Shown: in pieces, positions 365-51,287 of the stretch
Position numbering within the stretch: position 1 is the stretch's first letter
Layout of the letters: the number at the start of each line of letters is the position of its first letter
Position numbers and translations under genes: made by a program
Assembly: GCA_001595945.1 (NCBI GenBank)
Contig: LSSI01000052.1
Span: 1-58,000 of the forward strand
DNA: 58,000 bases
Direction: 5' to 3'
Source: Thermoplasmatales archaeon SM1-50
GTDB taxonomy: Archaea > Thermoplasmatota > E2 > DHVEG-1
Notes under the pieces: model-generated
Databases searched by the model: none
Seen by the model: the letters and a program-made list of their open reading frames with translations, nothing else
Told to the model about the DNA's origin: nothing

Positions 365-393
365 GGTGGGTGAGGAAGCAGTGACACCGTTTA
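365..393 (-). promoter_or_regulatory. Dispersed intergenic box, copy 1
   Basis: Good match to the box (GGTGGGTGAGGAAGC, then AGTGACACCGTTTA). It lies upstream of the partial exported gene at the left edge and touches the stop codon of the next lipoprotein gene. A TATA-like ATATAAATA lies about 35 bp away on the gene side. Confidence 0.7.
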
Positions 394-783
394 TAATGCT
401 AGAAACTCGTATTTAACATAATCAATATTTTCAGCATAATCATCATAACTGTGTACCGTAACTGAAAACTCTTTGGTGTATGTATTCGCTAAATAATAAA
501 TAGTATCGGTTCGTTTGAATAGAAAATGATCATTTTCATCATAGAACTTAACGGTCACTGATACTCCGTTCAACATATAACCTGCTACATTTTTTATTGT
601 TCCTTTATAATAATCATACCAACCGACGATTGTACTGTGACGTTCATAATCAGTATCAATCAATTTAACTTTAGCTATTTCACTTGTTTTATCATTTTCA
701 GAGTTTGATTGTTCAGTGCATCCACTCAATAATCCAGTACAAATAAAAAGGATGATAGCCCACAACATTACAATTTTTTTCAT
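391..783 (-). CDS. Small lipoprotein with FxLYD-like domain
   Basis: 130 residues. The N-terminus is a lipoprotein signal ending in the lipobox LLSGC, with the lipid-carrying Cys at residue 22. A polar linker leads to a compact beta-rich domain (about residues 50-125) with the pattern G-x-I-K-N-x-A-G-Y-x-L-N-x-V-x-V-x-V-x-F-Y-D. This is characteristic of the FxLYD family, an extracellular beta-sandwich of unknown role. It is probably anchored on the outer face of the membrane. The start follows a purine-rich leader (AGGAGAGGAAGG). Family placement is fairly safe; function is unknown. Confidence 0.75.
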   Translation of the reverse strand: MKKIVMLWAIILFICTGLLSGCTEQSNSENDKTSEIAKVKLIDTDYERHSTIVGWYDYYKGTIKNVAGYMLNGVSVTVKFYDENDHFLFKRTDTIYYLANTYTKEFSVTVHSYDDYAENIDYVKYEFLAL

Positions 784-987
784 ATCCCTTACCTTCCTCT
801 CCTGCTTTGTAACTATTCTTTCCTTAAAAACTTATACCCGACCCTACTTTTTTAAATAACATAGAAAGGAAGGGGATAGGACTCTCTTGGGGTCCTATCG
901 GCCGGAATATTACCCCCAAGGGGCTTTTAACCTCTACGAGCCTTCTATGAGCCTTATTTTTCAAGCCCCCTTTGAATAACTCCAAAG

Positions 988-1010
988 GTTCAAATCCCTC
1001 CCCCTGCATA
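988..1010 (+). promoter_or_regulatory. Divergent form of the dispersed box, plus orientation
   Basis: AGGTTCAAATCC followed by CTCCCCCTGCA. It lies about 50 bp upstream of a TATA-like AAATATAAATAC (1056-1067) that serves the plus-strand gene at 1106. Similar strings occur near 1789 and 8822. It also resembles a tRNA T-arm, but the stem does not pair. Otherwise the interval 784-1105 shows no gene. Confidence 0.4.
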
Positions 1011-1105
1011 CTTTTTCATTATTGTGATAATAAGGAAATCCTTACTGTTGAATGAAAAAATATAAATACGTGGTATGCTTTAGCATTGCATGTGGAGGAT
1101 TGTTT

Positions 1106-1699
1106 ATGAGAAAAAAAGTAGTTGTAATATTTGTAATAATGCTGATGCTTACAATGGGCATTTCGTATTCTGTAGCCGGCATTCCTTCCAATAAAAATTC
1201 TCAATTAGACGATGAAAAAATATCAGCAAATATTGATGCACCATTAACAGTAAGAGCAGAGGTAAAAAATGTAGATGAAAGAAAAGTTGTCTTGAATGTG
1301 TACGCAACAAACACCTGGAATGAACAAATAGAAGTAAATTGGGGTGGCAAACGCATCACATCCGCAGTTTGGTATCTTCCAAATGGAGAATGGGATTCAA
1401 GAATTTTTGTATATTACCCATATCATAGAAATATGTTTAGTTTTATCAATCGTTTTATTAATACAAAATTTAAACCAGGTGAGGAAAGACTTTTACAGAC
1501 AACGGTATTTTTTGGTTTGACAAATATCATTCTGCCTATGATAGCCCGAGGAAATCATAATATCATTGAATCTTTTCCATGGTTGCCTGATGGAGAATAC
1601 AGATTCGACGCGACAATAAATCCTTATAGGCTTGCTGGGGATTGGCACCAGTACCATACTTTTTCCTCAGAGGCTGTGTACTTTCATTTCGGCTCTTAA
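1106..1699 (+). CDS. Exported beta-sandwich protein, BsuPI-like (tentative)
   Basis: 197 residues from the start chosen here, which follows GGAGG with 7-nt spacing; an upstream in-frame ATG at 1052 lacks a ribosome site. Residues 1-25 form a signal peptide. The rest is beta-rich: a strand pattern ERKVVLNVYATNTWNEQIEV, a W-containing core, FKPGEERLLQTTVFF and a closing PDGEYRFDATI. The order 'Asn-containing strand, PGE, then PDGxY' resembles intracellular proteinase inhibitor (BsuPI)-type sandwiches, but this is by eye only. It is convergent with the beta-helix gene on its right. Confidence 0.6.
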   Translation: MRKKVVVIFVIMLMLTMGISYSVAGIPSNKNSQLDDEKISANIDAPLTVRAEVKNVDERKVVLNVYATNTWNEQIEVNWGGKRITSAVWYLPNGEWDSRIFVYYPYHRNMFSFINRFINTKFKPGEERLLQTTVFFGLTNIILPMIARGNHNIIESFPWLPDGEYRFDATINPYRLAGDWHQYHTFSSEAVYFHFGS

Positions 1700-1788
1700 T
1701 ATGTCTCAGAGAGTACAATCAAATGTATGATGATATTTAATTAAAGATGCTTCTAAAGGCACTTGTTGTCGTTCCAATAAACGCGGGT

Positions 1789-1862
1789 TCAAATCCTTTC
1801 CCCTGCACTTGAAAATAAATTCTCAGAAAATTGGGGTGGTGAGGAAGCAGATGGAAAGTTTT
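1789..1862. repeat. Opposed pair of boxes at a convergent gene end
   Basis: A plus-oriented divergent box (GGTTCAAATCC then TTTCCCCTGCA, about 1789-1808) is followed by a minus-oriented box (GGGGTGGTGAGGAAGCAG, 1833-1850). They lie between the stop of the plus-strand gene at 1699 and the stop of the minus-strand gene at 1868. No promoter is needed here, so these copies do not fit a pure promoter role. Confidence 0.5.
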
Positions 1863-1867
1863 GAATC

Positions 1868-3064
1868 TTATGTTATTCCAATAACAAAGAACAGGAGAAT
1901 AAATCCTGATGCAGTCATCTCAATATCATCAACTTTTACGGTAATGGAGATAGGACCAAGACCAAACAATTGTAATGAAACCACGGGTAATGTTTCTCCT
2001 GCAGTGATGTCGATTGTACCATTCATCGTTGTATTAATCAACCCGAAAATGCCGCCTTCCACGTGAATCCACCATGTGATATTGTCCGCGTCTGTTTGTC
2101 CATTGTTGGTGACGAGTACATTGATTCCAAGACCTCCTGTAATATCGATAGTTAAATCTGGTGGTTCATTTACCCAACCATTCGGTTCCATGAACGGGTA
2201 GTGGTCTTGGTTGCTCCCACCAGGAATGTTGTATGGTGTGTCTCCGATGCCATCCCCATCAGTATCTGTTCCATTGTAGTCTGACCAGTAGTTGCCACCA
2301 GAGGGGTACCCATTGTCCCAGATGTTACTGCATTTATCATACGCGTTTTGAGCGTTATTTATAAGATTATTATGATACAGATGGTTGTTGTTGCCGGAAG
2401 AAAATTCGTAGCCTAGGTAGATGCCACAGTTGTTGTGTGATGCGTTGTTGCCTATAATGGTGTTGTTGCTGGAAGATATTAGGAGGATGCCAAGGTAGTT
2501 GTTTGATGCATTGTTGCCTATAATGGTGTTGTTGCTGGAATATCCTAGGAAGATGCCTTCGCTGTTGTTTGATGCTGTATTGTCTATGATAGCGGTGTTA
2601 TTAGAAAGTTCGAGGTAAATGCCACAGACGTTGTTGTGTGATGCGTTATTGCTTGCGATGGTGTTGTTGCTGGAAGAACCAAGGACGATGCCATGGAAAC
2701 CGTTCTGTATGGTGAAACCAGAAATCGTCACCCCATCTGAAGTAACACACACAACACTACCTGCCCCTCCACCATCAATAATTGTAGTATCCCTATTTTC
2801 CCCAATCAAATCGATTGTTTTATTCACCACTACATGCTCAGAATATGTTCCATTGTACACAAACACCGTATCACCAGGGTTTGCATCATTAATTGCACTT
2901 TGAATAGTCGTATAGTTCCCAGGTCCACTCCCACCAACATAGAGCCACCCACGACCTAATGGTTGAGGATTTGAATTTATTTGATAACCAGACACGACAC
3001 TTGCTCCAACAAACAACACGAGAATACCTAAAACAATACTATTCTTCAATACGCTGCTTTTCAT
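1868..3064 (-). CDS. Secreted NosD-type beta-helix protein with C-terminal Ig-like module
   Basis: 398 residues. Signal peptide at 1-26; the opening motif PGNYTTIQSAINDANPGDTV marks a right-handed parallel beta-helix of the NosD / periplasmic copper-binding repeat type. About six coils carry the asparagine ladder (SSNNTI, SNNNAS). A TDTDGDGIGD loop, likely calcium-binding, ends the helix. The last ~95 residues form a separate Ig-like module (ITGGLGINVLVTNNG to the closing GFILLFFVIGIT) that also occurs as a stand-alone exported protein nearby. Such helices usually bind or process polysaccharide outside the cell; no catalytic residues were identified. Strong leader GGGGAGGAAACAGACC before ATG. 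Confidence 0.85.
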   Translation of the reverse strand: MKSSVLKNSIVLGILVLFVGASVVSGYQINSNPQPLGRGWLYVGGSGPGNYTTIQSAINDANPGDTVFVYNGTYSEHVVVNKTIDLIGENRDTTIIDGGGAGSVVCVTSDGVTISGFTIQNGFHGIVLGSSSNNTIASNNASHNNVCGIYLELSNNTAIIDNTASNNSEGIFLGYSSNNTIIGNNASNNYLGILLISSSNNTIIGNNASHNNCGIYLGYEFSSGNNNHLYHNNLINNAQNAYDKCSNIWDNGYPSGGNYWSDYNGTDTDGDGIGDTPYNIPGGSNQDHYPFMEPNGWVNEPPDLTIDITGGLGINVLVTNNGQTDADNITWWIHVEGGIFGLINTTMNGTIDITAGETLPVVSLQLFGLGPISITVKVDDIEMTASGFILLFFVIGIT

Positions 3065-3172
3065 GGTCTGTTTCCTCCCCTAAAAAATGGGTGCAGGAAA
3101 TTAATATCCATTAATCTTATTTATATCTTATGATTGTATTTTAATCGTAACAAAAGTTACAAAAAGAAACAT

Positions 3173-3200
3173 GGTTGGGGGAAAGCAGTGACACGGTTCC
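3173..3200 (-). promoter_or_regulatory. Dispersed intergenic box, copy 3
   Basis: GGTTGGGGGAAAGC then AGTGACACGGTTCC, 109 bp upstream of the beta-helix gene start at 3064 and 24 bp after the stop of the next gene. Confidence 0.7.
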
Positions 3201-3223
3201 ATAATCGGTTTTTTTGTGTAAAA

Positions 3224-4690
3224 TCAAGGGATGTCATAGGGTTCTTGTAATGGATGCCAATCAAAATTAATCCAAGGTATATTGACCCTTGAATTTCCTA
3301 ATCTCATTTTTCCTAAAATCAGTTTTGGAAAAATCCTTGGTCTTTCCCAATAATTGTCAGTCCAATTATTTATTCGATCACCTGAAAAAACAGAGAATCC
3401 TGCATTTCGACTATTATTAAGAAAATTATTAAACATTATATTGTTATTAGAGCCAAATTCAACGTGTAGTCCATATTTATTTTCTGAAATGATATTATTT
3501 TTTATGGTATTGTTCCATCCGATTAGATCAATCCCATATTCATTGTTTGCGATGAGGTTACCTTCGATATTAGTTCTTTGAGTAATACAGTAGAGTCCAT
3601 TACTATTGTTTAAGATTGTATTGCTCATAATATGGTGATCATACCCATGAAGATGAATCCCATACCTATTATCTGCGAGACAGTTATCAACAATGACACA
3701 ATTATCACTACCTTCTAACTGAATCCCAATCGAGGTATGTGTTAACTCTTGATTTTGAATGGTAATATTCTCACAGTAGACAAGAATTATTTGACCTGCT
3801 TGAATAGAGATTACTTTATCTGATACGTGATCTAAATAAACAAGTGATTTATTATTCACAGTATTATTAACGATATCATTTGTTTCTGTTATGGAGACAG
3901 AAACGAAAATACCATCATTGAAAAAGGTATTATTACAAACGATGTTTAACGTACCACTCACTAAAATCCCATTATTTACATTTGAATCTAAAAGATTATC
4001 AGAAATAAAAGTTGTATTTGATCTGGAGAGATAAATCCCTTGATTATTCGAAGAGAGGGTATTTCCAATTATTTTATTCTCTTGACAACAAAAGAGTTGT
4101 ATTCCGTCGCCTTTATTCGAATGAATAGTATTATTTAGAATTGAGTTATTATTACTTGAATACCACAGTCCTATCCCATTTAGTTGAGTAGAACTAATAC
4201 TATTCTCTGAAAGTATATTATTAAAACGGTTTTTATAAATATTAATTCCATCACAACAATCTTTTATATTGTTATTGGTGATTAAGGAACAGTTCGCTAC
4301 GATATCAACTCCAGCCATCTGCCAAAATTCACCGGAATTCTGCAAAGTAAATCCTTCCACGCATACTCCATCAGCAGAAATTTTGATGACATCTCCGTTT
4401 CCTCCGGCATCTATTACCGTAGTATTTTTATTTTCACCAATCAAATTGAGTGCTTTATTTACCGTGATTCCTTCATAATAGGGGGAGGAATCATCATAGA
4501 CAAAGATGGTATCACCAGGATTCGCATCATTTATCGCACTTTGAATGGATGTATAATTTCCTGGTCCGTCGCCACCGACATACAACCAACCACGGTTCAA
4601 TGATTGATGACTTGTATGTATTTGAAAACCAGAGACTACACTTCCTCCAATAAATAACAGTATTATTCCAACAGCTAATATTTTCCGCAT
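3224..4690 (-). CDS. Secreted NosD-type parallel beta-helix protein
   Basis: 488 residues. Signal peptide (1-22), then PGNYTSIQSAINDANPGDTI and a long right-handed beta-helix with many N-N-x-I turns. Midway comes a break reading NNKSLVYLDHVSDKV and then IQAGQIILVYCENITIQNQ. This 'NNKSLVYL...GQIILVxCxNITI' insert is shared with the 625-residue protein at 55.9-57.7 kb. Both end in NYW-x-R/Q-P followed by a conserved hydrophobic tail closing in PYDIP or PYNIP, so they are paralogues. Likely an extracellular carbohydrate-binding or carbohydrate-modifying protein; no active site was assigned. ATG is preceded by GGGGGAGGAATTAGAAC. Confidence 0.82.
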   Translation of the reverse strand: MRKILAVGIILLFIGGSVVSGFQIHTSHQSLNRGWLYVGGDGPGNYTSIQSAINDANPGDTIFVYDDSSPYYEGITVNKALNLIGENKNTTVIDAGGNGDVIKISADGVCVEGFTLQNSGEFWQMAGVDIVANCSLITNNNIKDCCDGINIYKNRFNNILSENSISSTQLNGIGLWYSSNNNSILNNTIHSNKGDGIQLFCCQENKIIGNTLSSNNQGIYLSRSNTTFISDNLLDSNVNNGILVSGTLNIVCNNTFFNDGIFVSVSITETNDIVNNTVNNKSLVYLDHVSDKVISIQAGQIILVYCENITIQNQELTHTSIGIQLEGSDNCVIVDNCLADNRYGIHLHGYDHHIMSNTILNNSNGLYCITQRTNIEGNLIANNEYGIDLIGWNNTIKNNIISENKYGLHVEFGSNNNIMFNNFLNNSRNAGFSVFSGDRINNWTDNYWERPRIFPKLILGKMRLGNSRVNIPWINFDWHPLQEPYDIP

Positions 4691-4792: not shown

Positions 4793-4822
4793 GGTGGGTG
4801 GGAAAGCAGTGACAGGGTTTAC
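4793..4822 (-). promoter_or_regulatory. Dispersed intergenic box, copy 4, near consensus
   Basis: GGTGGGTGGGAAAGC then AGTGACAGGGTTTAC. Its TATA (ATTTAAAGG on the plus strand, 4748-4757) lies about 40 bp closer to the gene at 4690, with the accompanying TTTGGAAAC sequence. Confidence 0.75.
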
Positions 4823-4997: not shown

Positions 4998-5405
4998 TCA
5001 TACTTGCATGATGAAAAGGAATATCCAGCCAATCTCTGTTCTTTTAACAGGGTCAGCATTTGATGCCTGAGCAGAGACAGTAATTTCCATTGGACGCAAT
5101 ACTCCAAATCCAAACACAGGACCTGAAAAAATATTTTTTTCTCCTCCTACATCAATACTGTCACAAGCACCATTCCTTTCACTACCAAGCGGGATGAGAA
5201 CTATGCCACCTTCAAAACGTATCGACCACGCAACGTCCTTGGCAGGTGCATCTCCAATGTTTTTAATGATTGATGCGACACCAACGAGTAATCCTTCATC
5301 TATCTCTCCTATTTCAAGGACAGTGCTCTGATGGGCCAAACCCGCTGTCGAAAAAATTGGTAACATTACCAGCATACAAATAACAATACAATATTGTTTT
5401 CTCAA
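4998..5405 (-). CDS. Small exported Ig-like module protein
   Basis: 135 residues from a TTG start that follows AAGGAGGAAATTTC. Residues 1-24 are a signal peptide (MLPIFSTAGLAHQ). The body is one Ig-like module: a first strand GLLVGVASIIKNIGDAPAKD, then VAWSIRFEGGI, a DxxGGE turn, GPVFGFGVLRPMEITVSA and a closing hydrophobic strand GWIFLFIMQV. The same plan forms the C-terminus of the beta-helix protein at 1.9-3.1 kb and the small proteins at 28.2, 30.9 and 42.3 kb. It resembles CARDB-type adhesion modules. No enzyme function is expected. Confidence 0.65.
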   Translation of the reverse strand: MRKQYCIVICMLVMLPIFSTAGLAHQSTVLEIGEIDEGLLVGVASIIKNIGDAPAKDVAWSIRFEGGIVLIPLGSERNGACDSIDVGGEKNIFSGPVFGFGVLRPMEITVSAQASNADPVKRTEIGWIFLFIMQV

Positions 5406-5518
5406 GAAATTTCCTCCTTAGATCATTATAAGTGAATATTATTATTTATAATTTTCCTTTTTAGAGATAAAACTGTGTACAATTTCCCCCGTAAAAACAT
5501 ATCCTCAGAAACAGATTA

Positions 5519-5545
5519 GGTGCCGGAAAACAGTGATACGGTCTA
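5519..5545 (-). promoter_or_regulatory. Dispersed intergenic box, copy 5
   Basis: GGTGCCGGAAAACAGTGATA then CGGTCTA, preceded by AACATATCCTCAGAAACAG, the gene-side flank shared by several copies. It lies upstream of the Ig-like protein gene starting at 5405. Confidence 0.65.
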
Positions 5546-5620
5546 CTCTTAAGGGGTTTTTGCGAAAGCATTATGATAAAAAAGATAAGGCGCAAATTGT
5601 GAATCTGCAGTCACTGCTAC

Positions 5621-7083: not shown

Positions 7084-7113
7084 GGTAGGTAGGGAAGCAG
7101 TGACACGGTTTAC
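7084..7113 (-). promoter_or_regulatory. Dispersed intergenic box, copy 6, with clear TATA
   Basis: GGTAGGTAGGGAAGC then AGTGACACGGTTTAC. On the gene side, ACTTAAATGTTTGGAACCAA carries the TATA and the common flank, about 30 bp from the box. It serves the C25 peptidase. Confidence 0.75.
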
Positions 7114-8763: not shown

Positions 8764-8821
8764 ACGAATAAAAAAATATTATTTCAATCTTTTTATAAGA
8801 TTATTTTCACATCCATATGTT

Positions 8822-8890
8822 CAAATTTCTTCCCCTGTATTCATAAATATATCAGCAGAACCAGGTTGAAGGAACGCATTGACCTGATTC
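8822..8890. repeat. Opposed pair of boxes at a second convergent gene end
   Basis: A plus-oriented divergent box (GTTCAAATTTCTTCCCCTG, about 8819-8837) faces a minus-oriented box (GGTTGAAGGAACGCATTGAC, from 8864). The latter ends exactly at the stop codon of the gene at 8891. Same plan as at 1789-1862. Confidence 0.5.
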
Positions 8891-11419
8891 CTACGACAAG
8901 TAATTAGATAAAACAAAAAGAAAAAGATAGGGGATTCTTAGTATCCTAATAGTTGTCATAGGATTGAAAACGCATGGGATAATAAATCGCTGGAAAAATA
9001 ACTCCAAAACCCGGAGTATCGGCTTATTAAAAGAAAAAGGCATTATTATAGGTAAAGGATCTGACCAAACGCTATTAGCACCTGTTATATCTTTTGCTTT
9101 GACTTTGATATTATAGATTCCTTTTGCTGACCATATATGTGATGCTGTCGCTGTTTGACCAGAGTTGAATGGTCCTGTCCAGGTTAATGGAGTTCCATCG
9201 TCCCAATCCCACATATAGTACACTAAACCACCATTTGGATCTATCGTTGATGTTTCATATGTGTATAATATTCCGGGTTTTCCTAAACAAGGTCCACTGG
9301 GTACATTTGGTTTATTTGGTCCGGGGTTACCCCCTTGTACTTGGAAATAATAATCGTCTATCATAGTTTCGTTTAACACAGGTATTTCACTTGGTATAGG
9401 TGTTCCTTCTGTAATTCCTTTTACACGGGTTGCCCAATTTCCCATATGGTTACTTGTGTAATCTCCAGGATATTGTGTTCCTCCGCATAGTTCGAAGAAA
9501 GAACCATAACTAGAATGGTCTTCAAGAGACAATCTATTGTACGCACGCATCTTGGAAGGGAACTCAGGGATCCATACTTTATCAAAGTAGAGACAGGCAC
9601 CTCCTGTATTATAAATACAAATCAGGGTTCCACCAGCGGGAAGCGGATTGCATATGATATAACTAAAGAGATGACCAGATACCTCCGAACCAGAGGAACC
9701 TTTCAAATAAATATTGTAGACACACTCGTTTATTCTTATATATCTAAAAACGTCTGCATTAACATAAGTATCCCAGCCACTATTGAGGTAATTATCCTGG
9801 AGTCGAACTCCATATTTAAATTGGTCGATATACACCCGTGTACTCCATACCCAACATACACTTGTATATAATTGACCTTGCTCCAGACAATAGATTCCGG
9901 TTCCCTTAGTGTTGCTTGAAAGAAGAACCATATTGTCGATTATAGCCCCTAAGTGGTAGTCGCTAACTAAATTGGTTACTCGCATAGCAGCCTGGTCATC
10001 TGATAAAACAACTTCAGTGCAATCGATTATACCATTTAATATCATAGAGCCTTTACTTAAAGTTATTACATTCATCGCAGAAGTTGGTTTAATAGTTGAA
10101 CCCATTAAATCTAAAAAAGCATATTCAGGAACTGTAATAGGAGAAGATATTGCATACGTATCCTTTGGAACCCAAATCGTACCTGGTTGACCTTCGAGAT
10201 CATTTAAGGCTAATTGTATATCTGAGAAGGTATTTCCTTTGCTATTTACTATCTGGTCGGTTTCTGTAAAGAGATAATAAGGACTTTCTAAACCTAACCA
10301 AGTTCCAGAACCGCTAGCAGTAGTATGATAGGCATCTTGCATATCGTCTAGGAAATGTAATGTATCCCACTGAGAAGGAGGCATATAAATTGGTAATTTC
10401 CAAAGAACATTATTTGTACCAGCATCTATGTAATCACTGTTTCCAGGAGTCCCATCTCCTTCATTACCTCCTGTCCAAGCAACAAAATTATTACTTGTAG
10501 AGGCATCGAGATTCAATGACATCTTCCCCATCTCCTTCATGTCAACAGAGTAATCCCAAAAGAACATACTTCTGAAAAGATTATTATGACAATCGCCTTT
10601 CATGACGATATTACATTCTGTTACTCCAGTTCCCCAACCCGTATTAGCAAACCCTGGTTGGGCTTCGAACATATCAAATAGATTATCGGATATTTCTGAA
10701 CTTCCAGATGCTTCTAAATACAGTTGATAATAGTTTGCATACTCTCCGATATATTTGAAGATGTTTTCTTGAATGTCACCACCGTGTGCAAACATTCGAA
10801 TACCATATCTAAATCCACTAATATGAATTCTGGAAAACAATGCTCTGTAACAAATCCCAGATGGAGCGTTTAGGAATACACCACATCCATAATAGTATTG
10901 ATTCGAACCAACTCCAACTTTTCCATCCATCCGTATATTTTTTATTGTTTGTATTGTATCACCACTAACAACACCAGAAAATCCAGATAAATAAACTGCG
11001 GCATCAGTATCTGACATAACAATTGAAGTACAATCTATAAATCCGTTCCAGAAATTAGCATCTTTTTCAAGCCGAACGATACTACCATAAGCAGATAACG
11101 GTTTAATGGTCGCTCCGCATAAATCAAGAGTGATTCCTTCTTTTATAAGTATAGTATCTGGTGGATTATATGTACCAGACGGAACCCAGACAGTACCTGG
11201 GCTAGATGTACTATCGATTGCGACTTGAATGTTACCAGATGTTGCATCGAATGTTTCTCCATCGCTGTTCCGTATCTTAGTCATACTGATAAATAGCATA
11301 TCTGGATTCACTAATCCAGCCAAAGCCTCTGAATAATTATTATTATTATTTTCTGCAACAACTAATGGAAAAGAACTTAATAAAAGACATATAAATATGA
11401 TTATGAATATATTCTTCAT
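8891..11419 (-). CDS. Large secreted protein: duplicated beta-helix domain plus PKD domain
   Basis: 842 residues. Signal peptide (1-22) precedes two homologous pectate-lyase-like beta-helix domains, about 50-340 and 395-690. Both open with 'IQxAxxxxxxxPGTxWVPxxTY', then 'LDLxGxTIKPxSAxxxI' and 'NGxIDCTxxVxSDxxAA'. A PKD domain follows (about 725-800: YYMWDWDDGTP to IYNIKVKAKD). The C-terminus breaks the family pattern: paralogues end in a conserved ERFPNAFP tail, but here the last ~40 residues are out of frame. An alternative frame still encodes QLLGY and a stop. A frameshift near 8960-9000 is likely. Probably a surface polysaccharide-binding or lyase-like protein. Confidence 0.8.
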   Translation of the reverse strand: MKNIFIIIFICLLLSSFPLVVAENNNNNYSEALAGLVNPDMLFISMTKIRNSDGETFDATSGNIQVAIDSTSSPGTVWVPSGTYNPPDTILIKEGITLDLCGATIKPLSAYGSIVRLEKDANFWNGFIDCTSIVMSDTDAAVYLSGFSGVVSGDTIQTIKNIRMDGKVGVGSNQYYYGCGVFLNAPSGICYRALFSRIHISGFRYGIRMFAHGGDIQENIFKYIGEYANYYQLYLEASGSSEISDNLFDMFEAQPGFANTGWGTGVTECNIVMKGDCHNNLFRSMFFWDYSVDMKEMGKMSLNLDASTSNNFVAWTGGNEGDGTPGNSDYIDAGTNNVLWKLPIYMPPSQWDTLHFLDDMQDAYHTTASGSGTWLGLESPYYLFTETDQIVNSKGNTFSDIQLALNDLEGQPGTIWVPKDTYAISSPITVPEYAFLDLMGSTIKPTSAMNVITLSKGSMILNGIIDCTEVVLSDDQAAMRVTNLVSDYHLGAIIDNMVLLSSNTKGTGIYCLEQGQLYTSVCWVWSTRVYIDQFKYGVRLQDNYLNSGWDTYVNADVFRYIRINECVYNIYLKGSSGSEVSGHLFSYIICNPLPAGGTLICIYNTGGACLYFDKVWIPEFPSKMRAYNRLSLEDHSSYGSFFELCGGTQYPGDYTSNHMGNWATRVKGITEGTPIPSEIPVLNETMIDDYYFQVQGGNPGPNKPNVPSGPCLGKPGILYTYETSTIDPNGGLVYYMWDWDDGTPLTWTGPFNSGQTATASHIWSAKGIYNIKVKAKDITGANSVWSDPLPIIMPFSFNKPILRVLELFFQRFIIPCVFNPMTTIRILRIPYLFLFVLSNYLS

Positions 11420-11495
11420 AATTACCCTCTTTCCTTAATTAACAATTGTTAAAAAACTTTTTCCATAACGTATTTATACAATTATTTTTCATAAC

Positions 11496-11523
11496 CAAGA
11501 AGCCAAGCATCGACACGATTTAC
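11496..11523 (-). promoter_or_regulatory. Dispersed intergenic box, copy 9 (degenerate)
   Basis: AAGAAGCCAAGCATCGACAC then GATTTACA, upstream of the 842-residue protein starting at 11419. A TATA-like GTATTTATAC lies 20-25 bp away on the gene side. Confidence 0.55.
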
Positions 11524-11852: not shown

Positions 11853-11886
11853 GACGGGTGGGGAAAGAAAACAATAACACGAGTTC
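11853..11886 (-). promoter_or_regulatory. Dispersed intergenic box, copy 10
   Basis: GACGGGTGGGGAAAGAAAAC then AATAACACGAGTTC, 44 bp after the stop of the radical SAM gene; the gene it might have served on the left is not convincing. Confidence 0.5.
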
Positions 11887-11929
11887 TATGATATAAATGA
11901 TAATCGTTCTTTAGTATAAACAACTAGAA

Positions 11930-13207
11930 TTAAATTCTGAATAATTTATGCATAATAAAATAATCAACTATGATACTATTAAAAAGTCGATTTATAGAAC
12001 GATTTTTATCGTTAAAACTCTTCTGTAAATAATTAGAAAAAGATTGAAACTCTTTTGCAATAGAGTTTCTCCCATCTAAAAGTTGTTCAACAGATAGATT
12101 TTTTGGTTGAAATACAACATTCCTAAGATTATATTTTGACCAATCTGTTGTCAAAATTCTTCCTTCTTTTAAAAATTCATTAAATAAGGTTGTTCCCGGG
12201 AAGGGAGTCAATAACGCAAATCCAACACGTTCAAGTCCCATTTTATTTATTGTTTCAAGGGTAGATGAAAAAACATCAAGGGTATCAGTATCAAATCCAA
12301 ACATGAAGAGACCCATAATATTCATCCCATAGTCTTTGATTTTTTTTACCGCAGAGGTATAGTATTGAACAGTATTTGTTTTTTTACCGATAGCTTGTAA
12401 CGTCTCCTGATTTATCGATTCGAATCCAATGAGCCATTGCTCACATCCTGCTTCACTAGCTATTCGTAAGAGTTCGTCATCATGGTATAACACATCGACA
12501 TTCCCATAGCAACTAAATTTTTTCTGTAACGGGATCATTGCTCGAAATAGTTTTTTTGTATACGTTTTATTTATAGTCAATGAACTATCCGCGAAAAAAA
12601 ACCGATTACTTTTCAGATTTTTAATCTCCTCGATGACAGACGGGAGTGGTCTGGCTCGAAATAGACCTCCCTCAACAGTTTGCACTGCACAATATTTACA
12701 TTGATATGGGCATCCACGTGTTGCTTGGATTATCCCTGTTGCACGGAGATACTCTGGTAATGTGCTTGCAGGAGGAATCATACGAGGATCAACAGGTTTT
12801 GATTTATAGAATGGCTTGAGTGTATTAGATTCATAATCTTTGAGAAGTTGCGGCCAGCTAATTTCAGCTTCCCCGATTACCACTGAATCTGCATGTTGTT
12901 TCGCTTCTTCAGGTATTGCAGAAGGATGGTATCCTCCGAGAATAACAGTTTTTCCCTGTCGTCTGAACTCGTCAGCGAGCTTGTATGCACGGTTCGCATT
13001 AACGGTAGTCGCTGTAATACCGACGAGATTTCCCTTCCAGTGAAAATCAACGGTTTGTAACCGTTCATCAATATAATCCACTTCATATTTTTTCGGCGTA
13101 CAAGCTACTAATTGTTCTAAAGTCAGTGAAGGAAATCCTAATGATGTTATTAATTTATTTAAAATATTGTTTTGTTTGTGATGGGGTAGTATGAGTAATA
13201 TTTTCAT
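11930..13207 (-). CDS. B12-binding-domain radical SAM protein
   Basis: 425 residues, cytoplasmic. Residues 1-130 form a cobalamin-binding-like Rossmann domain (VGITATTVNANRAYKLADEF, VILGGYHPSAIPEEA, VIGEAE), but the usual DxHxxG cobalamin His loop is not evident. The radical SAM core (about 155-370) has the cluster motif RGCPYQCKYC (Cys 166, 170, 173), IGFES and GLFMFGFDTDT, with PFPGTTLFNEF near 315. These enzymes generate a 5'-deoxyadenosyl radical. Close families methylate or modify lipids and other unactivated carbons; the substrate cannot be read here. Divergent from the helicase gene. It is one of few minus-strand genes without an adjacent upstream box. Confidence 0.8.
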   Translation of the reverse strand: MKILLILPHHKQNNILNKLITSLGFPSLTLEQLVACTPKKYEVDYIDERLQTVDFHWKGNLVGITATTVNANRAYKLADEFRRQGKTVILGGYHPSAIPEEAKQHADSVVIGEAEISWPQLLKDYESNTLKPFYKSKPVDPRMIPPASTLPEYLRATGIIQATRGCPYQCKYCAVQTVEGGLFRARPLPSVIEEIKNLKSNRFFFADSSLTINKTYTKKLFRAMIPLQKKFSCYGNVDVLYHDDELLRIASEAGCEQWLIGFESINQETLQAIGKKTNTVQYYTSAVKKIKDYGMNIMGLFMFGFDTDTLDVFSSTLETINKMGLERVGFALLTPFPGTTLFNEFLKEGRILTTDWSKYNLRNVVFQPKNLSVEQLLDGRNSIAKEFQSFSNYLQKSFNDKNRSINRLFNSIIVDYFIMHKLFRI

Positions 13208-18791: not shown

Positions 18792-18822
18792 ATGATTATG
18801 TATTTGTTATTTTTTCATTGTA

Positions 18823-18846
18823 ACGGACAAACAATGACACAGTTTT
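18823..18846 (-). promoter_or_regulatory. Dispersed box, degenerate copy at a convergent end
   Basis: CGGACAAACAATGACACAGT then TTTG. It lies after the stop of the plus-strand zinc-ribbon gene and 25 bp after the stop of the minus-strand gene at 18871, with no gene start on either side. Confidence 0.45.
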
Positions 18847-18870
18847 GACTCATAATTGTTATTGTGTTAA

Positions 18871-19437
18871 CTATTTCTTTGATTTAGGGAACCCTAGCCA
18901 TTGTGGTGTTTTTTCCATGTATTCCTTATATGGTTTTCCATAATGTCCTAAAGTTACTGCTTCTTCAAAAGGAGACAAATAAACCGTGATGAAAATAAAA
19001 AATATTGTTATCAATAGAAAAACCCAAGAAATAGAAACAATAGCTATGCCAAAATAGATCAAAAACCAACCAATAAACATAGGATTTCTTGAATAACGAT
19101 AAATACCTTTAGTAACAGGTTTATTCATTGGAGTAGCAGCAAAATTTAACATTGCTATAGCAACCAAAACCAATCCACCTAAGTATACAATCAATCCTGC
19201 ATAGAACCAAATTGTTCCAAGTTTTAATGGCAAAAAAACACTATAAAAAAAGGATCCAAACATGACTATAACCAATAGATATGAAAGAATCTTCTCCTTC
19301 CTTTTTGAAGGGGGAACAGCTTCAGGCATCCTTTTCGAAAATAAAAATTTGACACCACTAATCCAAAACACGATATCGGGGATTATAAAAATCCACGCAT
19401 TCCATATACCAATTTCAAAATCAGGAATCCACGACAT
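18871..19437 (-). CDS. Isoprenylcysteine/phospholipid methyltransferase-like membrane protein
   Basis: 188 residues with about five membrane segments. The diagnostic C-terminal region reads TKGIYRYSRNPMFIGWFLIY, then FEEAVTLGHYGKPYKEYMEK and TPQWLG: the 'R(Y/H)xRNPMY(x)G ... EE..L...G..Y..Y....P.W' signature of the PEMT/ICMT family. These enzymes methylate isoprenylated or lipid substrates at the membrane using S-adenosylmethionine. The substrate here is unknown. ATG is preceded by AGGAGAGAAC; the next box upstream is at 19495. Confidence 0.78.
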   Translation of the reverse strand: MSWIPDFEIGIWNAWIFIIPDIVFWISGVKFLFSKRMPEAVPPSKRKEKILSYLLVIVMFGSFFYSVFLPLKLGTIWFYAGLIVYLGGLVLVAIAMLNFAATPMNKPVTKGIYRYSRNPMFIGWFLIYFGIAIVSISWVFLLITIFFIFITVYLSPFEEAVTLGHYGKPYKEYMEKTPQWLGFPKSKK

Positions 19438-19494
19438 TGTTCTCTCCTACCTTTGAGTTTTATAACAATTCCTATCTTAAAAACATATCCTTAA

Positions 19495-19523
19495 GGGAGA
19501 CAGAAGCTTTGACATGGTTTTAC
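19495..19523 (-). promoter_or_regulatory. Dispersed intergenic box, copy 13
   Basis: GGGAGACAGAAGCTTTGACA then TGGTTTTAC, preceded on the gene side by TCTTAAAAACATATCC, a TATA-like flank shared with other copies. It serves the methyltransferase-like gene. Confidence 0.6.
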
Positions 19524-19589: not shown

Positions 19590-20453
19590 TCAGGGAGTAT
19601 AGGAGTAAGAAACTAACTCAGATTCGAATGTAAACCCTGGTCTTCCGCCAATATCTGTGGCATTGGAAACATCTTTTACCGTCCAACCTACTTCAGGCAC
19701 GTAGTAGTAGGATTCGGAAGCATGATACAGACCACTGGTAGCTGTCACTGAGACATTGTACGCGTCATAGGTCCCTGTTGGAACAGTAATGTTTGCCATC
19801 TCGCACGTGTAATTCTGTTCACCCGTGTACCCATAGAGGTCTGGCCAATTAAAAAGCGTGATAAGACCCCAGAAGAGTGAACATTTTTCATGACCTGTAT
19901 AAGAACTATTCGGCAGGGTACCATTTGTTCCTGCGGTTAGTGGAAACGGAAGAGATACAGCAGGTGGTGAATAAGTACCTGCCCAAGCATCAGTATATTG
20001 CGCGGGGATAGGTATCATGTTAAAAAGTAACCAAAAGACAAGACCCTTTTCTTGACCATAACGACTTACTAGAGCAAGATCTGTTTTACTAAGTTTAGCT
20101 TCACCGGATAATTTAGTTAATTTAGTAAATTTGAAGTGAAACGAGCTGATAGTGACACTCCCCTCATCATTTGTCGTGGTCATCTTGACCGTATAGTTAT
20201 CTCCAGTCGTGTTAGTAACATCATAGGTGCTTGTACAATTATGATACCATAAATACCATAAAGTACCATCTGCCTTGTACAAACGATTTACATATTTTTC
20301 ATTATAGGTAAATGAATCCCCTACCTCCCACACCGGGACATCAACACTAAATGATTGTGGTTGGATTTTCTCCTTGATATTTATATTTGTTGCAGATACC
20401 AAGGTAGTAGCCACTAGCATACAAATACATATTCCTACTATTTTCTTGTACAT
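19590..20453 (-). CDS. Exported protein of unknown function
   Basis: 287 residues from the ATG at 20453, which follows GGGAGGAAAAAAT; an in-frame ATG 48 nt upstream adds residues with no function and contains the ribosome site itself. Signal peptide about 1-22 (VGICICMLVATTLVSA). The mature part starts VPVWEVGDSFTYNEKY and ends GFTFESELVSYSY. It is rich in Thr, Tyr and Asn with many N-x-T sites and alternating strands, so a beta-sandwich or lipocalin-like barrel is likely. PTGTYDAYNVSVTATSG resembles archaeal DUF3108-like surface proteins. The family was not recognised. Confidence 0.7.
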   Translation of the reverse strand: MYKKIVGICICMLVATTLVSATNINIKEKIQPQSFSVDVPVWEVGDSFTYNEKYVNRLYKADGTLWYLWYHNCTSTYDVTNTTGDNYTVKMTTTNDEGSVTISSFHFKFTKLTKLSGEAKLSKTDLALVSRYGQEKGLVFWLLFNMIPIPAQYTDAWAGTYSPPAVSLPFPLTAGTNGTLPNSSYTGHEKCSLFWGLITLFNWPDLYGYTGEQNYTCEMANITVPTGTYDAYNVSVTATSGLYHASESYYYVPEVGWTVKDVSNATDIGGRPGFTFESELVSYSYTP

Positions 20454-20534
20454 ATTTTTTCCTCCCCTGACAATATAGGGTAAAAATTGGAACGACGCCA
20501 TCTTATTTAAATGTTATGAAAATAATAAAAATAA

Positions 20535-20558
20535 CGGGGAGAAGCAATGATACGGTTT
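20535..20558 (-). promoter_or_regulatory. Dispersed intergenic box, copy 14
   Basis: CGGGGAGAAGCAATGATACG then GTTT, about 25 bp from a TATA (CTTATTTAAATG, 20502-20513). It serves the exported protein starting at 20453. Confidence 0.65.
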
Positions 20559-20645
20559 TTTAGGGTCTGTTTTGTCTGAGAATCATGCTGACACACGCCT
20601 TGGTAAAAGAAATAGTCTCAGACACAAGAAATAGATATTGAATAA

Positions 20646-21346: not shown

Positions 21347-21679
21347 TTAAAATTCTAAGGCGCCAATGCACCAGCCCATGATCATGTGTGGCATCAGGAC
21401 GCCTCTGAATGTATTTGGTATAACCATCATCTGGCCACCATACCGAAAACCAGTAATCCGTTGAACAATACTCTGAGCGACATAATGGACAAATAGACAG
21501 CGAAACATTATCAATGCGCCGCCGTTTATCTCTCTAGGTCGGGTGAGTAGAAAGCCCTGGATGGTTGTCCAACCGATTCTACTTGGTTGCGGATTTTCCT
21601 GTATAGTTAGTCCTGCTGTGACAGGAATCACGGTTAATAACAGCATGCATATTAAGATGCTTATAATTTTGTATTTCAT
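21347..21679 (-). CDS. Exported 110-residue protein, copy A of a paralogous pair
   Basis: Signal peptide 1-23 (ILICMLLLTVIPVTAG). The mature part reads IGWTTIQGFLLTRPREINGG, then FRCLFVHYVAQ, VIPNTFRGVLMPHMIMGWC and LEF. A closely similar protein is encoded at 31609-31941. The two share most residues, the leader (AAGGGAGGGAGAAAAAC) and much of the 3' flank, so a whole unit was duplicated. The core 'W-T-T-I-Q-G-F' plus 'LFVHY' suggests a small beta-sandwich. No function is known. Confidence 0.7.
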   Translation of the reverse strand: MKYKIISILICMLLLTVIPVTAGLTIQENPQPSRIGWTTIQGFLLTRPREINGGALIMFRCLFVHYVAQSIVQRITGFRYGGQMMVIPNTFRGVLMPHMIMGWCIGALEF

Positions 21680-30188: not shown

Positions 30189-30216
30189 AGGTGGTAGGAA
30201 AGCATTGACACGGTTT
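30189..30216 (-). promoter_or_regulatory. Dispersed intergenic box, copy 20
   Basis: AGGTGGTAGGAAAGCATTGA then CACGGTTT, preceded by AAAATAAAAATCCTTAGAAAT. It serves the three-gene membrane operon. Confidence 0.7.
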
Positions 30217-30326
30217 TGATAAACAAGGGGAAAAATAAGTTGCTTACGTTGATGTAAAAGGCAATTAAGAAACAAAAAAACAAAAGAAGTGATTGTTTGT
30301 ATCCGAATTTAATAGATATGTATTTT

Positions 30327-31608: not shown

Positions 31609-31941
31609 TTAAAATTCTAAGACGCCACGGCACCAACCCAAGATCATATGTGGCATCAGGACGCCCCGGAATGTATTTGGTATAACCATTATCGTGCCGC
31701 CAAACCGAAAACCAGTGACACGCGGACCTAAACCTTGAGCAACGTAATGAACGAAGAGACAGCGAAACCATATCAATGTGCCGCCGTTTATTTCTTGAGG
31801 TGGGGTGAGTAGAAAGCCCTGGATGGTCGTCCAACCAATGTCACTTCGTTGCGGATCTTCCGGTACACTCATTCCTGCTGCGACAGGAATCATGGTCAAC
31901 AACAGCATGCATGCAAAGATACCTATAACTTTAATTTTCAT
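31609..31941 (-). CDS. Exported 110-residue protein, copy B of a paralogous pair
   Basis: Signal peptide 1-22, then IGWTTIQGFLLTPPQEINGG, FRCLFVHYVAQ, VIPNTFRGVLMPHMILGWC and LEF. It differs from copy A (21347-21679) mainly in the variable loop before TGFRFGG and in the signal peptide. Leader (GGGAGGGAAAATAAC) and 3' flank are also alike, which points to duplication of an entire gene-plus-spacer unit. Function is unknown. Confidence 0.7.
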   Translation of the reverse strand: MKIKVIGIFACMLLLTMIPVAAGMSVPEDPQRSDIGWTTIQGFLLTPPQEINGGTLIWFRCLFVHYVAQGLGPRVTGFRFGGTIMVIPNTFRGVLMPHMILGWCRGVLEF

Positions 31942-32106
31942 GTTATTTTCCCTCCCGAAAATTCAGGTTATATAATAAAACAATATAATCGTAGTATATA
32001 TAATTTATGATAGATTTTAATAGCAACAAAAGTTACAATAAATAAAACAAATGTCTAAAATCTAGAAACTCATCGTTTTTTTTCTTGAAAGTATAGACTT
32101 AGAGCC

Positions 32107-32129
32107 AAGGGAAAACAATACCATGGTTT
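32107..32129 (-). promoter_or_regulatory. Degenerate box upstream of copy B
   Basis: AAGGGAAAACAATACCATGG then TTT. About 165 bp before the ATG at 31941 and next to the remnant of a PKD protein. Confidence 0.45.
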
Positions 32130-32164
32130 CTAAGATAAAACATTGTAAAAAAAAGAAAGGAAAA

Positions 32165-39390: not shown

Positions 39391-39402
39391 TATTCATATT
39401 GC

Positions 39403-39978: not shown

Positions 39979-40314
39979 GATTAACAAAAATGTAAGGTTA
40001 CTCAGAATAATATTTAAATGACATTTTAAAAAAATATATCAGAAATCCTTATACATAGTAAAATAAGTGCTCCTATAATTTTTCTCTCCAAGATATCCTT
40101 ATGACATATTCCCTAATAAATAGATGCATTGACACGGTTTTCAGGTTCAATATTGCAACAAAAAAACTTTTGTATTCAATGATACGAAAAAATAGATATT
40201 TTTAGGAAAATTGTACAAATCAATCAGAATTAGCATATTCAATATTTTTTTGTTCAATAAAGAGGAAAAAAATCTTTTATATTGTTGTATGACTCTCTTT
40301 CTTGAGGAAATGCT
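39979..40314. other. Intergenic region with an orphan minus-oriented box
   Basis: Holds a box (40123-40144: TAGATGCATTGACACGGTTT then TC) and a minus-facing TATA-like sequence (ATATTTAAATGACATTTTAA, 40012-40031), but there is no minus-strand gene to the left. Both flanking genes are on the plus strand. No coding frame was seen. It may be the remains of an excised gene unit. The right end holds the promoter of the gene at 40315. Confidence 0.45.
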
Positions 40315-42708: not shown

Positions 42709-43099
42709 ATTATAACCTCAAAATATGTAACAATAGATTGATTCATAAAATTTCTTTTAGAAATTTTGTACATAAGTATAAAAAATAAAATGATTACGAG
42801 ATATTTGTTCAATTTTTAAGCATATCTTCTTTTTTTCCTTTTTTAAAGGCTCATATATAAAGAATTAATCAAATTTATTCTTCTTTTTATTTCATTTAAA
42901 TGTCTTGAAACAATAAAAATAAGTGGGAAAGCATCGACATGATTTACAGAGAGTTTTTTTGGTATGAATATCAAAATAAAAAAAAAGAAAAAGACGGGGG
43001 TTTCTTAGAAACCCACTTGCTTTGTTTTAGTTAAGGAAATACATTATGAAATCATTTATAGAAAGAGGTAAGCTTCATAAAGCTGATTGATTTGTTGTT
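42709..43099. other. Spacer with box, TATA and terminator-like tract
   Basis: In gene (minus) order: T-rich tract (42972-42993), A-rich patch, box (42923-42947: GTGGGAAAGCATCGACATGA then TTTAC), TATA (CATTTAAATGTCTTGAAAC, 42894-42912). This is a good example of the standard spacer. No gene was seen in it. Confidence 0.6.
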
Positions 43100-43833: not shown

Positions 43834-43862
43834 AGGGGGTGAAAAAGCAGTGATACGGTTTT
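43834..43862 (-). promoter_or_regulatory. Dispersed intergenic box, copy 26
   Basis: AGGGGGTGAAAAAGCAGTGA then TACGGTTTT. It lies 42 bp from a TATA (ACATTTAAATG) on the gene side and almost touches the stop of the next gene at 43867. Confidence 0.7.
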
Positions 43863-43866
43863 TTGA

Positions 43867-44208: not shown

Positions 44209-44729
44209 TATGTCTTATCTTCTCCTAATGTTTTATAACGTTTCATTCTTTAAAAATATATCCTCAGAAAACAGGTGGGCAGGAAAGCGTTGATACGTTT
44301 TTTGTTGTTTTCGTACGAAAGAATGACAAAGTATTGTCGGTCTAGAGAGAAGAGTGGCAGATTATTTGGAAGTATAAATTAAGGGGGAAATATGAAGAAA
44401 AAATATTTTCTGCCAGACTCCCTTTCCTGTTCAAGTTTTTAATTCCTCCTCTCTATGACCTAATTGTTCAAGAAATGATGACCTGAACCATTATTATTTA
44501 CTTTCTTTTTTTCCTCCACTGATAATACAGGTTACAAATAGGAACGAAGTTATCATATTTAAAAATTTTGGAAAAAATAAAAATTTAAGAAAAACAAAGG
44601 TGTGGGAAAGTATTAACACAGTTTTAAAACACAATGATAATGGTTTTTATTATGTAAATCATTACTAAAAAAGGTAAGAAATATAAAATAGTTAGATTTG
44701 ATATAATTTACTGAAAGAGTATAAAAAGA
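44209..44729. other. Spacer pair around a lost gene
   Basis: Contains box 44274-44302 (GGTGGGCAGGAAAGCGTTGA then TACGTTTTT, with TTTAAAAATATATCCTC on the gene side), serving the lipoprotein. A second box at 44599-44624 has TATA (CATATTTAAAAATTTTGG, 44554-44571) and a minus-strand leader with GGAGGAA (44512-44518). The leader is followed by ATG at 44491 and only six further codons before a stop. The promoter and leader are intact but the gene is gone. Confidence 0.5.
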
Positions 44730-49490: not shown

Positions 49491-49667
49491 AACAACATGC
49501 TTTTTTTGGTATTTCTCTTAATTATCTTATATAAGTGTTTTTTCTTGAAAAATTGTAGTGTCTGTCTGATTTGTTTTGGTTTTTTCCCTAGAACTTCAGA
49601 GGATATATAAATAATGTGACCTATTTGCTTTTTGTTGCTTATATAACATATGGAGGACGGAAGAAAT

Positions 49668-50570
49668 ATGGGAAAGTTTCTATGGAAAAAAGAAATTGCG
49701 TTAGGAATTGCTTTTCTGTTTTTTTGTTTGGCTGTAGGTGTTTCGACCGCAGGTCAAAAAACAAATGTCCGTCATGATGTAGTCCCATCTGATGGCTTTG
49801 GTCTGCACAGCGTTCTGAATATCGAATGGAGCCAAAATGCGACATACGACCCACTTCCTCCTGATAGTACACTCCGATTGATCACCTTGAACATAACATA
49901 TTGGACCACGCATGGTCCCTTCTTTTATCGGATGATTCTGTTGTATTGTCAGCTTACACATCAGACTATTACGGTGAATCTAGATGTTAGAGATACACCT
50001 AGTTGGTGTACTGCGACCCTTCAAAACACCCAATTACCATTTCTTATATCAGAGACTCAAGTAACACAACATACAACCCTACTTGTTGCAGTGGATGAAC
50101 ACGCGCCTGCTTTCGAACCATTTTTAATCACTCTGTATGCATCAGTGGATACGATGATTGGTCCGTTTGGTCTCCTCCCGTTTGTTTATGGATTTGAAAT
50201 AGATAGGAAGATTGGTTTTGTACCCGGGTACCGAGCGCAAATTACTGTCACCCCGGAATCTAATTTCCTCGAGACCACACCTGGAACCTCGGTCACTGAC
50301 CTGATAACTGTAGAAAATCTCGGAAATGGGAAAACCCTGGTTAATATACAAATTGTTGATTTACCTCAGAACTGGGTTGTTATAATTGATCCGTCTCAAC
50401 TCATTCTAGAAATGAATGAAAGAAAAATAACAAGGCTCATAGTCACTCCTCCTTTTGGTTACTATGGAGTTGCTACAATACTCTTATCTTTTACTCCCCG
50501 GTCGTATTATCATCCAGAATATACCGGAGAACCGCACTTTCTGCACATTGTAGTTGAGGTGAAACCATAA
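49668..50570 (+). CDS. Exported protein with NEW3/CARDB-type C-terminal domain
   Basis: 300 residues from the ATG at 49668, after GGAGGACGGAAGAAAT; an in-frame ATG at 49650 precedes this ribosome site. Signal peptide about 1-30 (IAFLFFCLAVGVSTAG). N-terminal half: beta-rich Ig-like (LRLITLNITYWTTHGPFFYR). C-terminal half, from about 195, opens with TVTPESNFLETTPGTSVTDL and contains VENLGNGKTLVNIQIVDLP and YHPEYTGEPHFLHIVVEV: the NEW3 / NPCBM-associated Ig fold. An extracellular stalk or adhesion protein. It stops one codon-frame before the PKD lipoprotein remnant. Confidence 0.72.
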   Translation: MGKFLWKKEIALGIAFLFFCLAVGVSTAGQKTNVRHDVVPSDGFGLHSVLNIEWSQNATYDPLPPDSTLRLITLNITYWTTHGPFFYRMILLYCQLTHQTITVNLDVRDTPSWCTATLQNTQLPFLISETQVTQHTTLLVAVDEHAPAFEPFLITLYASVDTMIGPFGLLPFVYGFEIDRKIGFVPGYRAQITVTPESNFLETTPGTSVTDLITVENLGNGKTLVNIQIVDLPQNWVVIIDPSQLILEMNERKITRLIVTPPFGYYGVATILLSFTPRSYYHPEYTGEPHFLHIVVEVKP

Positions 50571-51215
50571 AAAAAATTGAGTCATATATTTGGTTTTATA
50601 ATATTATTATTATCAGCGTCATACTTAATTGGTTGTTTTGATGAAAACATAGACAAGAATAAACCACCAATAGCAGATTATATATTTACTAATGCGAGTA
50701 ATGCATCTATTGATAACTGTTACAAATCTGCTTTTAAATTTACGGATAATTCCTCAGATACTGATGGTGAAATTGTCAAATGGTCTTGGGATTTCGGTGA
50801 TGGCAGCTCTTCAGGTGCCCGGAATCCTCTTTATTATTTCTCCACTCCATGTCACCAGGTAATTACTATAACGTAACTTTAAACGGTAACAGATGAAGAT
50901 GGTGCTATAAACTCAACCACACAAAAAGTACAGATATTTATGGTACCTATTTGTATCCCTGTGGTAAACTCTACATACAGTCCCAAAGAAAATATTACAA
51001 ATCAAACATCTTTATTTTTCAACGCATCATTATCTGAAATATATGGGCAGGATGTTATCTATTACTGGGACTTTGGAAATGGAATAAAAGTTAATGAAAC
51101 AAACGCTATAACAACCCATATTTATGCCATCGCTGGAGTATATACAATAAGTCTAACCATTTCAATTAAAAATGGTCTTTTAGACTATATTACAAAAGAT
51201 ATCATAATATCTTAG
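50571..51215 (+). pseudogene. PKD-domain lipoprotein broken by two compensating frameshifts
   Basis: The first part (from TTG 50577) has a lipoprotein signal (LLLSASYLIGC) and a PKD domain (IVKWSWDFGDGSS) but meets a stop at 50876. In another frame, GNYYNVTL fits exactly where the PKD strand should continue. An extra A near 50880 then returns reading to the first frame: TVTDEDGAINSTTQKVQIFM, followed by a second PKD domain (VIYYWDFGNGIKV to YTISLTISI) ending at 51215. One deletion and one insertion within about 35 bp explain this. It directly follows the gene at 49668-50570 and may have been co-translated with it. Confidence 0.6.
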
Positions 51216-51265
51216 ACTAAAAATATAGATAAATTACGTTTGAATTAAAATAAAACCATAAATGA

Positions 51266-51287
51266 AAACCATGTCAATGCATTCCCA
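51266..51287 (+). promoter_or_regulatory. Box in plus orientation upstream of a plus-strand gene
   Basis: AAACCATGTCAATGCATTCC then CA: the reverse complement form. A TATA (AACATTTAAAAG, 51323-51334) lies about 40 bp on, followed by the leader AGGGGAGGAAC and ATG 51388. Here box, TATA and gene are all turned round together, which supports a promoter-linked function. Confidence 0.7.

Follow-up and report, generated by a model that had tools for sequence, protein, structure and literature searches.

A short repeat, called here the box, recurs between the genes of a 58,000-nucleotide stretch of DNA from Thermoplasmatales archaeon SM1-50 (contig LSSI01000052.1, positions 1 to 58,000; contig C52 of the 2.09-Mb draft genome). 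This whole stretch is referred to as the window. We propose that the box forms the joints of a mobile gene-cassette array and that it also abuts promoters, a reading to which we assign a probability of roughly 0.58. A typical unit would consist of a single gene, in most cases encoding an exported protein and in many with its own promoter, flanked by two like-oriented boxes. Recombination within the core TTAAAACCGTGTCAATGCTT or next to it would remove units, add them and exchange them among loci and species. What carries this proposal, besides the geometry of the arrays, is that homology between loci breaks off at the box, that a unit found in several species is conserved far above the level of the backbone, and that copy numbers swing widely within a single genus. 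An initial annotation had taken the box for the upstream activator site of a regulon of exported-protein genes, an interpretation that our results support in part.

Single-gene units and breaks of homology at the box

In gene sense the core reads (TT)AAAACCGTGTCA[A/C]TGCTT. The whole element runs from a T-rich tract through an arm (TTTTCGCACcAAAAAAcCATTAAGTCt) and the core (GTAAACCGTGTCACTGCTT), which is asymmetric and about 20 bp long, to a tail (TCCCACCCACC), and is often followed by one of two types of promoter. Sister species have TTAAAACCGTGTCAATGCTT as core and GATTCGCACAAAAAACATTGAGTC as arm; the window's species has CACTG as its version of the former. The tail is mostly genome-specific (TCCCAC in the window's own genome, CTGTTT in G005, GACCGC in G010). 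The box is a real repeat. Exact-pattern scans of the window gave 8 and 15 half-box matches where 0.7 and 1.0 were expected, and a 30-column weight matrix, grown from the consensus of the initial annotation and used with a cut-off of 12 bits, converged to 39 sites against 0 to 5 (mean about 1.5) in first-order Markov shuffles. A few of the weaker matches are due to chance (+21501 and +31763, inside two paralogous genes). We inspected 26 copies in the window. The coordinates first listed proved good to within a few bases (20941 became 20935, 31511 became 31506, 42923 became 42918 and 48093 became 48091), and the spacer order T-rich tract, box, TATA, GGAGG and ATG was seen in most copies. An Rfam scan of the window returned no match, no tRNA genes were found in it, and no published description of the repeat was found in the literature searched.

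For the geometry of the arrays we examined box-bearing stretches of nine genomes, 0.92 Mb in total. Neighbouring boxes have the same orientation in 131 of 147 pairs, at a median interval of about 1 kb, and 78 of the 121 intervals of up to 4 kb hold exactly one open reading frame (ORF). ORFs of at least 90 aa run along the box direction in 109 cases and against it in 22. Of 184 placed boxes, 147 (80%) have the same orientation as the gene in front and 143 (78%) the same as the gene behind, as compared with 52% for spaced neighbours in box-free contigs; the box is tied equally to both neighbours. All strong boxes of the window between 365 and 46112 lie on the minus strand despite several plus-strand genes there, for example around box 40113.

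That boxed genes mostly encode exported products, also claimed at the outset, was upheld. By a crude rule based on N-terminal hydrophobicity, 102 of 131 unit ORFs (78%) are exported or membrane-anchored, versus 62 of 217 (29%) in arbitrarily chosen contigs. A co-oriented box lies no more than 260 bp upstream of 13 of the 33 exported-looking ORFs of the window and of 0 of the 17 others; this link depends on the strand (12 of 26 exported minus-strand genes, 1 of 7 exported plus-strand genes). Families represented among 120 unit proteins include NosD/beta-helix proteins, C25 peptidases, PKD domains, M28 peptidases, phosphoesterases and nitroreductase, among others. No recombinase family is found among the 25 commonest.

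Units move as wholes, with their joints at the repeat. A gene for a 250-aa nitroreductase lies antisense between boxes in four species (G001, G004, G005 and G006). The unit is 94.7 to 98% identical among the four, whereas the 4-kb backbone around pyrG is only 77 to 88% identical between G004 and the other three, and the neighbours of the unit differ from one species to the next. On one side all four share ...CATCGAT(T/A)AAGCATTnACACGGTTT and diverge completely beyond it; on the other, three species share the arm ACCATCGAGTCC followed by TTAAAACC and diverge in the core, the G005 sequence being truncated there. Likewise, a unit for a 147-aa protein on the own-genome contig C12 (L110:17282-17850) is 86% identical from core to core with its counterpart in G004 (L189), and the flanks are unrelated. 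A third case lies within the window's own genome, where contig C55 reads A, box 1, a gene for a 135-aa protein and box 2, and contig C82 reads A and box 2, with A and box 2 97 to 98% identical (L117 versus L124). This is the arrangement that deletion of a unit would give; the join lies within TTTTCGCAC, upstream of the core.

The same pattern is found when boxes are compared pairwise. Among 97 pairs with strong homology beside the core, 95 have just one side in common (the upstream side is common to 21, the downstream side to 78 and both to only 2). As to where the crossover might fall within the core, in downstream-shared pairs (at least 85%) the right half differs less than in random pairs (0.087 against 0.148) and the left half does not (0.144 against 0.155), values that rest on too few independent pairs to fix the position.

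For copy numbers we used a sequence-only profile at E<=10 in the window's own genome (G000) and a second model at E<=0.01 across genomes. The former gave 90 matches and the latter 63. With the second model, the other species of the genus have 81 (G005), 46 (G004) and then 15, 12, 10, 8, 2 and 0 copies, a span of 0 to 81 that would be odd for a regulon; in other genera of the family, 29 of 36 genomes have no box and the remainder 1 to 6 each. Relatives with the same repeat are filed under Thermoplasmata (LFW-68_2, PMC8561730) and Candidatus Thermoplasmatota. Boxes are clustered, with 22 in the 58-kb window versus 1 in 20 stretches picked arbitrarily from the same genome, 253 kb together. Thirteen lie within 300 bp of the first base of their contig where about 4.4 were expected (hand count; Poisson p about 0.0007), an excess to be expected if assemblies fork at boxes. 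The ends of contigs C82 and C55 (L117, L124) carry the same 150 bp or so and fork at the box, suggesting duplication or population variation. A viral origin was considered and rejected: three IMG/VR contigs match a 19-mer of the box, but they belong to one group of head-tail viruses (with baseplate genes) and have no array, and we judged the matches to be due to chance, which by our estimate would yield one or two.

Boxes and genes of the window

The boxes of the window are listed below together with the genes that would form its cassettes.

365..394, minus: box, 34 bits; 3' joint of the lipoprotein cassette 391-783
391..783, minus: cassette gene, small lipoprotein (130 aa), its stop codon touched by the box
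3172..3201, minus: box, 32 bits; between 3224-4690 and 1868-3064
3224..4690, minus: cassette gene, exported protein with a beta-helix/NosD look, between boxes 3172 and 4793; family present among unit proteins
4793..4822, minus: box, best copy of the window, 39 bits; then TTCCAAACCTTTAAATAA promoter
4998..5405, minus: cassette gene, exported 135-aa protein, between boxes
5517..5546, minus: box, 27 bits
5621..6973, minus: cassette gene, exported 450-aa protein, between boxes 5517 and 7084
7084..7113, minus: box with promoter, 37 bits
7305..7334, minus: box, 28 bits; adjoins the start of the divergent plus-strand gene 7435
8863..8892, minus: box, 23 bits; overlaps the stop of 8891-11419, then tRNA-3'-end-like motif
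11494..11523, minus: box, 21 bits; upstream of 8891-11419
11858..11887, minus: box, 23 bits; 43 bp behind the radical SAM gene 11930-13207
18818..18847, minus: box, 21.5 bits; behind 18871-19437
19493..19522, minus: weaker box, 19.5 bits; between 19590-20501 and 18871-19437
20531..20560, minus: box, 26 bits
20935..20964, minus: box, 29 bits
21241..21270, minus: box, 24 bits
21856..21885, minus: box, 34 bits; behind the 1389-aa exported protein 21937-26106
30189..30218, minus: box, 36 bits
30798..30827, minus: box, 21 bits
31506..31535, minus: box with full T-rich/TTTTCGCACCAAAAAA arm, 24 bits
31609..31941, minus: cassette gene between boxes 31506 and 32102; paralogue of 21347-21679
32102..32131, minus: box, 22 bits; behind the redox operon
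40113..40142, minus: box, 18 bits; between two plus-strand genes, still in the minus orientation of the array
42918..42947, minus: box, 30 bits
43100..43723, minus: cassette gene between boxes 42918 and 43834
43834..43863, minus: box, 34 bits
43867..44208, minus: cassette gene, 113-aa lipoprotein; related cassettes on contigs C82 (70%, box at each end) and C12 (69%)
44274..44303, minus: box, 28 bits
44597..44626, minus: box, 27 bits
46083..46112, minus: box, 23 bits
48091..48120, plus: box with arm and promoter, 37 bits; opposite to both neighbouring genes
51264..51293, plus: box, 31 bits; before the exported protein 51364-53028

The 200-bp interval between boxes 7305 and 7084 is without a clear gene. 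The paralogous ORFs 21347-21679 and 31609-31941 encode 110-aa exported proteins and stand in separate cassettes.

A second dispersed motif, GCAGGGGAAGGGATTTGAACCCCAGATTACCGGT, resembles an antisense tRNA 3' end. It is present on the minus strand of the window at 988-1007, 1787-1806 and 8819-8838 and at other loci that we retrieved, with 59 matches (up to 4 mismatches) in the 0.92 Mb; at up to 3 mismatches, 13 copies fall in 312 kb of box-rich DNA versus 3 in 253 kb of other contigs of the same genome. Several copies lie 25 to 35 bp behind a box core. Elements once integrated into a tRNA gene may have left them behind. On own-genome contig C37 (L119:3309-3382), an intact tRNA-Asn lies about 160 bp before a box, and a piece resembling a tRNA 3' end follows that box.

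The promoter link and competing explanations

A recognisable promoter of one of two classes, A and B, follows 104 of 226 boxes, against 7 in shuffles. The description of TATA as often embedded in a TTCCAAACATTTAAATAA-type context holds for one class; the other is CTGTTTCTRAGGATATGTTTTTAAAG. From the end of the core (GCTT), TATA is reached after 18 bp in 29 copies and otherwise mostly after 28-33 or 37-44 bp, clustering around 18, 29-30 and 40 bp in copies that are not independent of one another. Preferred box-TATA distances, as first reported, are supported. Spacings that rise by about 11 bp at a time are consistent with helical phasing; the periodicity score, however, shows no preference for 10.5 bp and is just as high at every period between 9 and 12 bp, because a few promoter families dominate. 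A conserved gene for a 43-46-aa zinc-ribbon protein (MTYCKVCKK...; L176, L204, L281, L120) has the box at a position before TATA that varies by species. Either transcription benefits from the box, or units are captured close to promoters.

One could thus envision the box as an upstream activator or promoter-class element of an exported-protein regulon, the breaks of homology resulting from the copying of genes with their promoters and from homologous recombination driven by the repeats. The spacings and the enrichment of exported genes near boxes speak for this, as does the more frequent sharing of the box together with the downstream gene. The zinc-ribbon gene adds to this: the box stands about 18-20 bp ahead of its TATA in G002, in G005 and in G010, a member of another genus. 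In G000 the box is farther away from TATA, and in six other species the same zinc-ribbon promoter lacks it. A regulon would need boxes upstream of co-oriented genes; in 41 of 184 placed boxes (22%) the gene behind points the wrong way. A promoter element should also favour divergent over convergent gaps, and boxes occur in convergent gaps (30 of 77, 47 being without) at least as often as in divergent ones (26 of 113, 87 being without), which counts against a plain promoter role. Nor do the equal tie to the upstream gene, the uniform orientation whatever the genes, the 62 exported genes in other contigs that go without a box (1 box in 253 kb) or the copy-number span agree with such a function. 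An activator site of a regulon, taken by itself, does not account for the box, and we regard even the broader version as unlikely; promoter spacing and export enrichment survive from the original idea, with which geometry, exchange and distribution disagree.

It is less probable still that the box is a short mobile repeat, similar to a miniature inverted-repeat transposable element (MITE) and made up of a terminator, a core and a promoter, whose insertions would fall upstream of promoters and behind genes, with gene exchange as a by-product. Variation in copy number, presence or absence at orthologous promoters and a 65-bp box unit that is 97% identical in two contexts would suit it; however, no inverted repeat or hairpin rises above shuffles in the box, no target duplications were seen in the junctions examined, among which there was no clean empty site, and boxes cluster and alternate with single genes rather than being scattered. 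A part in termination or 3'-end formation of the upstream gene, suggested by the T-rich tract just before the box, the short distance from the upstream stop codon and the 80% co-orientation, is very improbable given the conserved core behind the tract and full-arm boxes that have no co-oriented upstream gene (7305, 48091).

Several points weigh against the cassette-array proposal as well. The preferred spacing between core and TATA, and the prevalence of downstream-shared over upstream-shared pairs, favour a promoter role. In some exchanges (L117/L124; L089/L091) the break falls not in the core but upstream of it, in the arm, an outcome to be expected of general recombination too. Clean insertion of a single unit next to an empty site was not found at the two loci in question: at the pyrG junction, which we rejected as an empty site, only two species have boxes, with 90-170 bp of unrelated DNA between them in a messy arrangement, and the zinc-ribbon locus, with a box in four species and without in six, is rearranged on its left side. 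Boxes have no recombinase gene as a consistent neighbour: those for tyrosine recombinases, considered in that role and discarded, are scattered and missing from G003, and every one of the 12 genomes tested has a serine recombinase, even G003, which is box-less. In G000 the conserved serine recombinase lies at C11:5661-6095 and a tyrosine recombinase at C76:24731-25243, both candidates for the enzyme. In addition, the genomes compared closely are all draft metagenome bins. Two serine recombinase genes in tandem, of about 260-300 aa, occur at each of G006:C102:29811-31166, G008:C35:40150-41505 and G014:C1:609225-610579.

Under the cassette-array proposal, the core would be recognised by a dedicated recombinase acting in trans, rather than units being moved by general homologous recombination between repeats, which is also possible. 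Units that begin with their own promoter would place the core at the preferred distances (18, about 29 and about 40 bp) before TATA, and the core may additionally act as an upstream promoter element. It is tempting to go further and to speculate, tentatively, that Thermoplasmata possess an undescribed gene-cassette system, with a recombination site and a recombinase of its own (lacking the attC fold and IntI), that builds arrays of exported-protein genes in which each captured unit has the recombination core at a fixed distance before its promoter. If so, an uncultured archaeon would have its own means of collecting and swapping genes for surface and exported proteins, comparable to bacterial integrons and based on a different site. 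This would account for the change of exported repertoire in such archaea. The core would serve as a marker by which arrays could be sought in other genomes, and one would have to ask which recombinase recognises it. A natural misreading would be corrected too, as a repeat found before many genes need not be a regulator site.

Comparison with known systems

Archaeal upstream activator sites, which precede BRE/TATA, share with the box a preferred distance before TATA. The box differs in being found also behind genes and between convergent genes, in its swings of copy number and in that shared units end in it. Another parallel is offered by dif sites, which are 28 bp long with inverted arms. In the box the core is asymmetric and the copies are uniformly oriented; the genus also lacks a conserved Xer-type gene. 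The pdif (XerC/XerD) modules of Acinetobacter plasmids are nevertheless alike in that genes are bounded by short recombination sites served by a host recombinase in trans (PMC6449649). The "dark matter islands" of archaeal genomes, in the portions of their description drawn on here, are similar clusters of fast-changing genes for membrane and exported proteins, and differ in that those portions contain no repeated joint between genes (PMC4158269).

The closest analogy is with integron arrays. Published archaeal integrons were found through attC models (PMC9668308). Integron arrays, including the archaeal ones, likewise consist of head-to-tail single-gene units with a mostly species-specific repeat in one orientation; exchange takes place between loci and species, and often no integrase gene is nearby, as in CALIN-like arrays (PMC9668308). 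The differences from these arrays (PMC9668308) lie in the units, which here often have promoters, in the repeat core of about 20 bp and in the site. None of 224 elements carries the attC R boxes (RYYYAAC / GTTRRRY) on either strand, where shuffles gave 0.7. Complementarity between arm and core is close to that of shuffles (mean 4.2 versus 4.1 in relatives, 4.1 versus 3.7 in the own genome), with no attC-like hairpin, and none of the nine genomes of the genus, which are drafts, has an IntI (TIGR02249) above the cut-off. On R boxes, fold and IntI together, a canonical integron was rejected. The box array would thus be integron-like: it resembles an integron in arrangement and appears to be built on a different recombination site.

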